NCBI RefSeq assembly: GCF_003431325.1
Contig: NZ_CP010515.1
Span: 496,001 to 560,000 of the forward strand
DNA length: 64,000 bases
Source: Acidilobus sp. 7A
Lineage (GTDB): Archaea > Thermoproteota > Thermoprotei_A > Sulfolobales > Acidilobaceae
Direction of reading: 5' to 3'
How positions within the stretch are numbered: the first letter of the stretch is position 1; each line of letters begins with the position of its first letter. This document shows, piece after piece, positions 13,408-63,500 of the stretch. The notes beneath the pieces were generated by a model. That model searched no databases. It saw only the letters and a program-made list of their open reading frames with translations, and was not told the origin of the DNA. A program made the translations under genes and the position numbers.

Positions 13408-13678
13408 AGGCTTTCATAAGTTATAGCGGGGTCGACGCTTATAAGTGCGTCTAATAATCCACCGCAGGAATTGATGGAGAGTCCTTTTATACAACTAAAG
13501 TTCGTCCGCAACTAGAGACTTAGCTGTTTGCACGTTTCAGCTTCAGGGTAACGAGCCCATCGATGTACAGCGATATTATCAGCGTGTAGCCAAGAGCATG
13601 TGCTAATGAGGTGGGGCTGTTGCATGGTTGGTGTTTAGTGGTTGAGTTTATAAGCCATAGTTTTGTTTTTAATTATTA

Positions 13679-14455
13679 TTGATGCCAGTGCCTTCGGAGA
13701 GGCTACTGAGGTCTAAGGAGGTCAGCGAGTACAGGCCAAGGGGCTACATAACAGTTGACGTTAATGAGAACTCTGAGGCCGTCCTCATTGACGGCGTCGT
13801 CTACCTCCTCGAGACGGACCTGAGCGAGGTGACCCTTGGCTATTATTACAGGAGGAAGAGGGTCCAGGAGAAATATGATGAGGTCTACGACCCATGCAGC
13901 AGGCCCGCTAGGAGGATATTCAAGAGGCTGAGTAACAATGAGAGGGTCCTCAAGAGGGAGATAAGGTGGAAGCTGGCCGCCCTAATTGTCAGGGAGGCAG
14001 CAAAAAGGCAGGCTGTCATAGTTCTTGAGAGGCTGCAGGGAGCCCGTCAACCACATGATTGAACACGTCAAGGACCCCAGCTCGGGCACAGAATTTTCCA
14101 GGCTGCGTTCAAAGGAATGCAGACGACCATTGAGGAGAAGGCAAGGGGGTATGAAGTTCCAGTCATTTACATTGACCCCAGGAACACGTCAAGGGCTTGC
14201 CCTATACACGGTGCCGAGATGATATACGGTAAGGACAGGCGCGGCACCTGCTCTAAGGGAGAGGAGACGTGGCACAGGAATGTAGTCGCCTGCTATAACC
14301 TCCTCCTGAGGGCCCTCGGCGGCGATGGGGGCGCTGCCCCAAGCCGCCTGAGGGCCTTGGCCACCGTAGATAGGGGCCCCGCGCCGCTGGTCTTGACGAC
14401 CGCCCATGAGCCCACGCCGATTGCTTATGAGGCGTGGGTAAGGTGGGGTCCCTAG
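13679..14455 (+). pseudogene. tnpB: Degenerate TnpB (IS200/IS605 OrfB-type) remnant
   Basis: The C-terminal half of a TnpB nuclease broken over three frames. Frame 1 (13679-about 14040) carries RuvC-I (TVDVNENS), the region with YYRRKRVQEKY, and RuvC-II (IVLERL). Frame 2 continues with HMIEHVKDP from about 14040, and frame 3 from about 14085 with GHRIFQAAFKGMQ through VPVIYIDPRNTSRACPIHG. At least two frameshifts are therefore needed. The N-terminal bridge-helix half is missing. The RuvC-III segment reads WHRNVVACYN, with Asn where an Asp is expected, so catalysis would be lost even if the frame were repaired. No TnpA transposase is nearby. A dead, immobile remnant. Confidence 0.85.
14411..14438 (+). 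repeat. Hairpin at right end of the TnpB remnant
   Basis: Perfect 8-nt inverted repeat CCCACGCC / GGCGTGGG separated by 12 nt, lying inside the last codons of the tnpB remnant. This is where IS605-type elements carry the right-end hairpin and the scaffold of the associated guide RNA, so it is probably a relic of the element end. Confidence 0.45.
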
Positions 14456-14552
14456 GTGCATCAAATGATCATAGACAAACAGGAATGAGCATCTAGGGGC
14501 AAACGGTTTAATAAGAGGGACATCATGCCTCAAGAGGTTGTGGAGTGGTAGC

Positions 14553-21373: not shown

Positions 21374-21507
21374 CCTTCGATTAACTTATTAAATCAGCAT
21401 CTCAAGTGCTTGGCAAGGAATCCTTTCCAGCGCGCTAAGGCGGTGCGCGATACCATGGAGCGACGCGCAAAGGGCTTAGCGGAAAACCCCTGGCGTTTGG
21501 CGAGACT

Positions 21508-21553
21508 CTGACCTCCTCCCCGCCCTAAAGGGCTAGGCTTTCAGTTGTAACGC
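21508..21553 (+). repeat. Dispersed hairpin repeat, copy 1
   Basis: CTGACCTCCTCCCCGCCCT - AAAGGGC - TAGGCTTTC - AGTTGTAACG: a GCCC/GGGC hairpin in a conserved 45-nt frame shared with copies at 30515 and 57139. Such sequences are common at right ends of archaeal TnpB elements, where they belong to the guide-RNA scaffold. Here no tnpB gene is attached. Confidence 0.6.
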
Positions 21554-21607
21554 CTCTATGTAACTACTAGTTATTTTTAATTATCTCTAAATATTGTTTT
21601 GATAAAT

Positions 21608-21618
21608 TATGTTTATAT
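21608..21618 (+). promoter_or_regulatory. Strong TATA box before the candidate structured RNA
   Basis: ATGTTTATATAG lies in a 60-nt AT-rich island between GC-rich segments. A start about 25 nt downstream would fall near 21640, at the beginning of the structured GC-rich block. No open reading frame follows it. Confidence 0.5.
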
Positions 21619-21639
21619 AGCGTTACCGAGGCAGTTTTC

Positions 21640-21910
21640 ATTGGCGACTCCCCACCTGATGACGGGCGCCGCTCAACGAGGGTGGGAGTGATAAAAGGCG
21701 TGGATAAGAGGGTAGCGGCGTCTCCCTCGACTAGCCCCGGCGACTTAAGGGTGCCCGCGTGTGATCCCTTAAGAGGGGTGCCCGCGGCGGAACTAGGTTA
21801 AAAGTTAAGGAAAAGTCACGCCACGGGTAAACACAGCGCGGGTTCTACTACACAAAGATAGGAAGCAGCTTTGTACACGTCCCCCGCAGGAGGTTGAGAG
21901 CCGCTAATTT
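21640..21910 (+). ncRNA. Candidate structured non-coding RNA
   Basis: About 270 nt with no credible ORF, led by a strong TATA box. Visible pairing: ACTCCCCACC (21647-21656) with GGTGGGAGT (21681-21689), one bulge; CTTAAGGG (21744-21751) with CCCTTAAG (21766-21773); ACAAAG (21852-21857) with CTTTGT (21869-21874), enclosed by GCGGG (21838-21842) and CCCGC (21883-21887). GCCGCT near 21668 can also pair with AGCGGC near 21714, crossing the first stem. An 11-nt direct repeat GGGTGCCCGCG occurs at 21749 and 21776. I could not match it to RNase P or SRP RNA by eye. Strand is inferred from the promoter. Confidence 0.45.
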
Positions 21911-21924
21911 CGTGAGCGTAAGGT

Positions 21925-22245
21925 TCACTTGGACTTGGCGGAGCTTAGCGCCTTGATCTTATGGAGCGCAGTTGACCACGCCCTGTCGCTTACCCTGATG
22001 CCGCTCTTCTCGAGCCCCTCCTTAACTCTGTTTAGGAACTCTTCATAGCTTAGCGACTCCCTGGCGGTGCCCAAGTCAACGTTAATGATCTTCCTAGAGG
22101 TGGGCTCTAGGACCCTTATAACGTCGCTCACCTGACCCTTCCTGCTGTACCTGTAAACGTCAAGCTCCCTGAAACCGAGGAGTTCAAGTAACGCCTTATA
22201 GTACGTGAACTGCGACCCCCTGCTCACTTTCGCTTTCCCCTTCAC
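21925..22245 (-). CDS. Small basic hypothetical protein
   Basis: 106-aa protein, basic at both ends (start MKGKAKVSRGSQ, end ALSSAKSK), helical in the centre, with no recognised domain. The composition would suit a nucleic-acid-binding protein but nothing diagnostic is seen. ATG 22245 lies about 20 nt from a TATA box shared with the divergent HTH gene, so the mRNA is probably leaderless. Its 3' end faces the candidate structured RNA. Confidence 0.65.
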   Translation of the reverse strand: MKGKAKVSRGSQFTYYKALLELLGFRELDVYRYSRKGQVSDVIRVLEPTSRKIINVDLGTARESLSYEEFLNRVKEGLEKSGIRVSDRAWSTALHKIKALSSAKSK

Positions 22246-30364: not shown

Positions 30365-30514
30365 GCTTAACCTGGTTTCAGCTAGGTTGGACAGGCGCAG
30401 CTAAGGCCCTCCATGGCTGTGAGGGAGCGCCAACCCTTGCAGTTAGCCCCGAACTGGGATAGAGCCTGCGCCCTAGGGGGTTCTGAAGACCCTCATTGCC
30501 CCAAGGTGATGGGT

Positions 30515-30562
30515 CTGACCCCCTCCCCGCCCTGAAGGGCGAGGCTTTTCAATTGTAACCCC
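30515..30562 (+). repeat. Dispersed hairpin repeat, copy 2
   Basis: CTGACCCCCTCCCCGCCCT - GAAGGGCGAGGC - TTTTCAATTGTAACCCC, the most complete copy of the repeat also seen at 21508 and 57139. The core is GCCCTGAAGGGC. Same orientation as the other two. Confidence 0.6.
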
Positions 30563-57138: not shown

Positions 57139-57180
57139 CTGACATCCTCCCGCCCTAAAGGGCGAGGCCTGCCGTTCTCT
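57139..57180 (+). repeat. Dispersed hairpin repeat, copy 3
   Basis: CTGACATCCTCCCGCCCT - AAAGGGCGAGGC - CTGCCGTTCTC, the same hairpin as at 21508 and 30515 with a shorter conserved 3' part. It sits between DUF371 and PCMT, in the promoter region of both. Confidence 0.55.
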
Positions 57181-63213: not shown

Positions 63214-63500
63214 CCTGAAGGCTAAAGGGGCGCCTAAACGCCCTAGTAAAATCTTTTTCTTCGCTTTCCCTTTTTGGCATGAGCTTCTAAACCTCGGCCT
63301 CAGCCAGCAGAGACAGAAGTGCCAGGAATCTTACGCGTGGGGAGCGCCGTAAATGGGGCCCTGCGGGCGAGGCGGAGGTCCCTGGGCGCAACTAGTGATC
63401 GTAAGCTGACGAGAATGAGCGCCCAGGGACAGACGGCTGGGCGACCCCTCGAGGCGCCTATTGAGCTTAACGTCCAAATTTGTGCGTACGGCGTAAGGTT

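Follow-up and report, generated by a model that had tools for sequence, protein, structure and literature searches.

A putative protein-less IS607-type element with a promoter and a TnpB guide RNA in Acidilobus sp. 7A

The window analyzed is a 64,000-nucleotide stretch of the chromosome of Acidilobus sp. 7A, and it contains a block for which a promoter-led structured RNA had been predicted. Our analysis indicates that this block is probably an IS607 element that lacks protein genes and amounts to a mobile gene encoding the guide RNA (reRNA, or omegaRNA) of TnpB. Comparison of its copies and relatives gives good support to its assignment as a non-autonomous IS607-type element without protein genes that keeps a promoter and a TnpB guide RNA, and we favor the inference that this RNA is made and used by TnpB in trans. 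Crenarchaeal repeats that have long been filed as passive miniature elements (MITEs) thus become candidate guide-RNA genes.

Extent, copies and insertion of the element

In a whole-genome search, the block proved to be repeated at dispersed sites, which the original prediction, made from the sequence alone, could not reveal. Five further full copies, with 84 to 92% identity, are present on the same chromosome, the sister species (G001) harbors two full copies, with partial copies elsewhere, and at least 40 copies were found in Metallosphaera yellowstonensis MK1. Alignment of the copies and their flanks gave sharp ends, TGTAACG...GGGTAAACAC, which define an element of 289 nt at positions 21546 to 21834 of the forward strand, as opposed to the extent of 21600 to 21912 proposed initially. 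The features of this element, hereafter referred to as the solo element, are listed in Table 1. As stated at the outset, the block contains no credible open reading frame (ORF), and the TATA box, located within an AT-rich stretch, was confirmed, as was the presence of good stems. Considering the usual spacing between archaeal TATA boxes and start sites, transcription is expected to start near 21640, just before hairpin H1. None of the parent elements examined was found to contain the promoter segment of the solo elements. The loop GGAAGCAGC, which had been likened to SRP RNA, lies in the flank, outside the element. The 11-nt direct repeat noted earlier is present (21749 to 21759 and 21776 to 21786) but is due to chance, since it is absent from other copies (GGGTGACCGCG versus GGGTGCCCGCG). 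The element has no inverted repeat linking its left and right ends and is thus not a MITE in the strict sense, defined by terminal inverted repeats. Copies were detected neither in viral contigs, searched with an exact core pattern, nor in phage and plasmid records, searched with blastn.

Table 1. Features of the solo element and its predicted guide (window coordinates)
Feature	Position	Strand	Basis
Whole solo element	21546..21834	+	Sharply bounded repeat in several copies; exact empty site of a sister copy
Left end with near-terminal palindrome TAACTACTAGTTA (21561-21573)	21546..21590	+	Common to the parent TnpA-TnpB element
TATA box TTTATATA	21612..21619	+	Conserved in Acidilobus and Metallosphaera solo elements
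Hairpin H1 (CUGAUGA..CGAGG, kink-turn-like)	21651..21686	+	Kept in all solo lineages seen
reRNA core, H2-H3-H4	21703..21834	+	Homologous to tnpB 3' end; R1 match
Hairpin H2 (loop 21718-21722, pseudoknot 5' strand)	21708..21728	+	Covariation; arms invariant among solo elements
Hairpin H3, kink-turn-like junction (CCCC-NNN-GA / GA-GGGG)	21734..21779	+	Both helices covary
Terminal hairpin H4	21781..21827	+	11 of 12 pairs change on both sides (54 rows)
AAACAC, pseudoknot 3' strand and right end of element	21829..21834	+	Two-sided changes in the family
Predicted guide (host flank) AGCGCGGGTTCTACTACACA	21835..21854	+	Analogy with TnpB reRNA; flank varies between copies

Members of the family insert precisely behind RGAC and do not duplicate the target, as is characteristic of IS607 elements; this is illustrated by an empty site and by restored ORFs. 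The motif RGAC was found at the left flank of all 27 distinct full-length copies analyzed in M. yellowstonensis (one of them tabulated one base out of register), and GAC at that of the other seven full copies in Acidilobus, the window's own genus; the window copy has CAGT and abuts another right-end relic. For the copy at C2:142,169 of the sister species, joining the flanks gives a sequence that aligns to an unoccupied locus of the window's chromosome over 300 of 300 nt without gaps (98% identity), and the insertion point follows AGAC, with no duplication. Joining the flanks restored an ORF at three insertions, namely, this copy, a further copy (c263), and the parent element, which interrupts a gene. 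No empty site was found for the window copy or for c263, the flanks of which are too diverged or lacking. The right flank, which corresponds to the guide position, differs from copy to copy, as is typical of reRNAs. Some M. yellowstonensis pairs (L113/L120, L107/L120, L135/L138, and L110/L144) have the right flank in common and different left flanks, a pattern suggestive of recombination among copies or of assembly effects.

The intact parent element is located on the same chromosome (G000:C1, about 188,060), where the genomic match to the solo element sits inside a gene. This gene is an intact ORF of about 440 amino acids that is recognized by TnpB models (TIGR01766, 2.7e-16; the NF040570 match was under its cut-off). 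Directly upstream of this tnpB, and overlapping it, is a gene for a 204-residue serine recombinase, TnpA (Resolvase, 1.7e-22), identified as an IS607 transposase by NF033518 with 203 bits compared to a cut-off of 110. The combination of a serine-recombinase TnpA with TnpB that characterizes IS607 is therefore found in the parent only; both are absent from the window element, which is consequently non-autonomous. The parent pair is bounded by ends of the same kind (GAGAC at the flank, then TATAACG...GGGTAAACAC), and the 3' two-thirds of the solo element share homology with the 3' end of the parent tnpB. From these shared ends and this homology, the solo element is read as a left end and a promoter segment followed by the terminal portion of tnpB, from which about 100 nt were deleted, and a right end. 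Compared with tnpB, solo elements are interrupted by frameshifts and stop codons.

RNA fold, covariation and constraint

The tnpB 3' ends of distant genera carry three hairpins, H2 to H4. In eight such ends, 18 of the 32 pairs change on both sides, and the covariation score was 0.529, compared to at most 0.185 when the partners were slid. A covariance model, R1, was built from these eight sequences only, leaving out the window copies. R1 matched the window block at 21703 to 21834 with 44.6 bits (E value of 3.6e-11) and also found the other solo elements. An alignment of 54 rows showed two-sided changes at 30 of 37 pairs and a score of 0.624, against at most 0.130 after sliding; the score is favored by the fitting of this alignment to the model, and four of its rows are spurious, being antisense matches confined to H4. 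H1 is also supported, since one of its pairs differs, as C-G versus A-U, between the two lineages of solo elements, Acidilobus and Metallosphaera, which is a compensatory change. Its counterpart in other genera reads GAUGAUCCGC..GCGGUGA. As to the kink-turn-like junction of H3, L7Ae may be its partner, although this is a guess. The natural deletions of tnpB in solo elements show which part of its 3' end is needed by the scaffold, namely, H1 plus H2 to H4. The folding energy of the block alone was unremarkable (z = -0.57 on the forward strand), folding z-scores were uninformative, and so was RNAalifold on eight near-identical copies.

The original prediction contained a possible pseudoknot between GCCGCT and AGCGGC. 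This pairing lacks conservation, with ATTGAAG in its place in many M. yellowstonensis copies, but a different one is supported. Its five pairs join the H2 loop to the bases that directly precede the guide on the 5' side, and it is Cas12-like (TnpB nucleases are relatives of CRISPR-Cas12). Its two-sided changes include GUGUU/AACAC, GCGUU/AACGC, and CCGUU/AACGG, and the five pairs covary although they are absent from the model. The pseudoknot of the ISDra2 omegaRNA has the same topology (PMC10097598). The window copy keeps three of the five pairs and may, considering also its left flank of CAGT instead of RGAC, be an ageing copy; the pseudoknot is weakened in many M. yellowstonensis solo elements as well.

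We considered whether the solo elements could be passive MITEs, of which TnpA moves only the DNA ends. The RNA-like part would then be leftover tnpB, kept because it is recent or recognized by TnpA, and there would be no guide RNA. The copies are indeed mobile and fairly similar, and part of the solo elements have the weakened pseudoknot that this explanation allows. However, solo elements of several genera have all retained the hairpins H1 to H4, directly preceded by a promoter-like sequence, and the compensatory change in H1 arose among solo elements. Furthermore, the arms are far less variable than the loops even though no protein is encoded: of 52 positions in the H2 to H4 arms, 3 vary in Acidilobus and 6 in Metallosphaera, as compared to 21 of 48 and 15 of 50 loop positions, respectively. 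Judging from these substitution patterns, the solo RNA is under constraint, and we consider the passive explanation unlikely, although it is the most serious of the alternatives.

The parent nuclease and a proposed mechanism

In the mechanism proposed for a solo element that acts as a guide-RNA gene, RNA polymerase would start near 21640 and synthesize the scaffold plus about 16 to 20 nt of host flank as a guide. TnpB made by the parent would bind this RNA in trans, and the complex would cut the matching, RGAC-flanked empty site. The break would then be repaired from the occupied copy, restoring the element, according to the peel-and-paste/homing model of TnpB, and the element itself would be moved in trans by TnpA. 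If TnpB does act in trans on non-autonomous elements, this would explain how protein-less IS607 copies can outnumber their parents.

The nuclease activity of the parent TnpB is plausible but unproven. It is not assured, since the canonical RuvC-II glutamate (VVG versus VLE) and the Zn-finger cysteines have been lost. Comparison of the parent clade showed that the DPG motif and the Zn finger are absent (DVNEN; no CxxC). The clade has an alternative glutamate, located six residues ahead of the site formerly occupied by a Zn-finger cysteine, VSExYTSSx(D/N)PF. In the position of this RuvC-II glutamate, though not in the DPG motif and the Zn finger, the parent TnpB thereby conforms to the "Ealt" type known from Fanzors and from their relatives among the IS607 TnpBs (PMC10711439). 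AlphaFold, run without a deep alignment, gave no usable model of this protein (pLDDT of 34).

The loss of the canonical glutamate throughout the parent clade would also suit a domesticated regulator, with the solo RNA directing a TnpB of impaired nuclease function to host loci so as to repress them. Such RNAs are used by TldR repressors, which derive from TnpB, according to the accessible part of PMC13418256. Against this stand the Fanzor-type position of the alternative glutamate, the mobility of the copies, their dispersed and non-conserved insertion sites, and, in keeping with a transposon, guides that change from one copy to the next and are identical to the flank of the insertion. In addition, the first 18 nt of the window guide have no second perfect match in their own genome, and a wider search of that genome for targets returned nothing above the noise at 3 mismatches. 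A regulatory role is thus a distant second among the alternatives and very improbable. An independent crenarchaeal noncoding RNA gene, resembling RNase P, SRP, or H/ACA RNA, would account for the TATA box, the stems, the kink-turn-like motifs, and the lack of an Rfam match at gathering score, but we practically dismiss it in view of the homology to tnpB 3' ends, the mobility, the variable flanks, and a permissive cmscan that returned HgcC alone, on the opposite strand.

The claim of a promoter-led structured RNA thus stands at the sequence level, the promoter position and the stems being conserved across copies. The claim that it is a new crenarchaeal noncoding RNA does not stand as worded: no Rfam 15 family matched the block at gathering score (only tRNAs were found elsewhere in the window), so that the family lacks a name, but the kind of RNA is known, namely, the TnpB reRNA. 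The Rfam scans, at gathering and permissive thresholds, excluded archaeal RNase P and SRP RNA, neither of which had been recognized by eye.

Related elements and distribution

R1 matches were obtained in 112 of the 197 genomes of the order, and an RNA family that has no Rfam entry is thereby supplied. Several of the best R1 loci have no tnpB, as 6 of the top 20 match only the last 40 or so tnpB codons. This is illustrated by a 1.6-Mb genome of the order (G053), in which 9 of the 10 loci examined are solo elements. Most other solo lineages have an A+T-rich TATA-like motif 5' of an H1-like hairpin, and solo elements of several genera share the plan of a left end, a promoter-like sequence, a guide-RNA scaffold, and a flank in the position of the guide. 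It is conceivable, though we rate it at somewhat below even, that crenarchaeal genomes harbor mobile guide-RNA genes by the dozen, which drive their own transcription and together program one or a few TnpBs in trans. In that case, many archaeal "MITEs" would be such genes, and they would spread through the homing of an RNA-guided nuclease the active site of which has been rearranged.

HEARO and solo IscB omegaRNA elements are mobile guide RNAs without a nuclease gene; they are bacterial and associated with IscB, not TnpB. The reRNAs of ISDra2 and of IS607 (RAGATH-18) resemble the window RNA in corresponding to the 3' end of a tnpB element, in a multi-stem scaffold with the flank as guide, and, at the level of the family, in a pseudoknot beside the guide; an AG-rich left-end motif has also been reported for IS607. 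The window RNA differs in being encoded without tnpB, in its own promoter and fold, including the kink-turn-like H3, and in being matched by no Rfam model at gathering score. In Staphylothermus marinus, the accessible part of PMC2678158 describes 14 MITEs of about 260 nt together with four similar IS607 elements. These MITEs resemble the window element in size and IS607 relationship, and G053 has the same plan; its 18 R1 matches fit the sum of 14 MITEs and four tnpB elements, in numbers only. That part of the article describes them as MITEs and does not mention guide-RNA content. The Sulfolobus mobile non-inverted-repeat elements SMN1 and SMN2 are likewise non-autonomous, active, about 320 bp long, and devoid of inverted repeats; SMN1 has been attributed to ISC1733 and is set beside the window element by its description alone (PMC3718332, PMC3839810). 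The PATEs of Haloquadratum are protein-less IS605-type elements with near-terminal palindromes and no target duplication; they differ in that the accessible part of PMC3119063 describes them as fused ends only and proposes no promoter or guide-RNA role. IS605/IS607 MITEs, PATEs, and RAGATH-18 reRNAs are therefore near kinds that were already known, and what is new here is a promoter-bearing solo TnpB guide-RNA element. We found no earlier description of reRNA-only archaeal elements in the open-access literature, to which the search was confined, so that one may have been missed.

Several other sequences of this type were observed. The permissive scan of 21400 to 22100 gave an HgcC match (27.6 bits) on the opposite strand, which corresponds to an unrelated TnpB-like right-end relic (21507 to 21535). 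Dispersed hairpin ends of 36 to 40 nt, GCCTCGCCCTTTAGGGCGGGGAGGAGGTCAG, followed by variable sequence, occur in the window at 21507 to 21550 (minus strand), 30514 to 30562, and 57139 to 57176, and at more than 20 places in the sister species; those tested scored 24 to 30 bits against Rfam HgcC (cut-off of 50), and these similarities suggest that HgcC itself may be a TnpB right end or reRNA end. A broken canonical-type tnpB lies at 13673 to 14506 of the forward strand, in two frames (13673 to 14059 and 14063 to 14452), with its reRNA 3' end at 14369 to 14506 (55 bits to R1). A weak reRNA-like R1 match at 63316 to 63436 of the forward strand (21.3 bits, E value of 5e-4), ending in ..CAGGGACAGACGG, is perhaps a decayed solo copy. 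A second repeat family (L028:2618-2651, L029, and L033 to L036) has a 45-nt left end, GTCTGTAAC..TAACTACTCGTTATTTTTAAT, in common with the solo element and a different body, GGAGGGCGCC...GGCGCCC.
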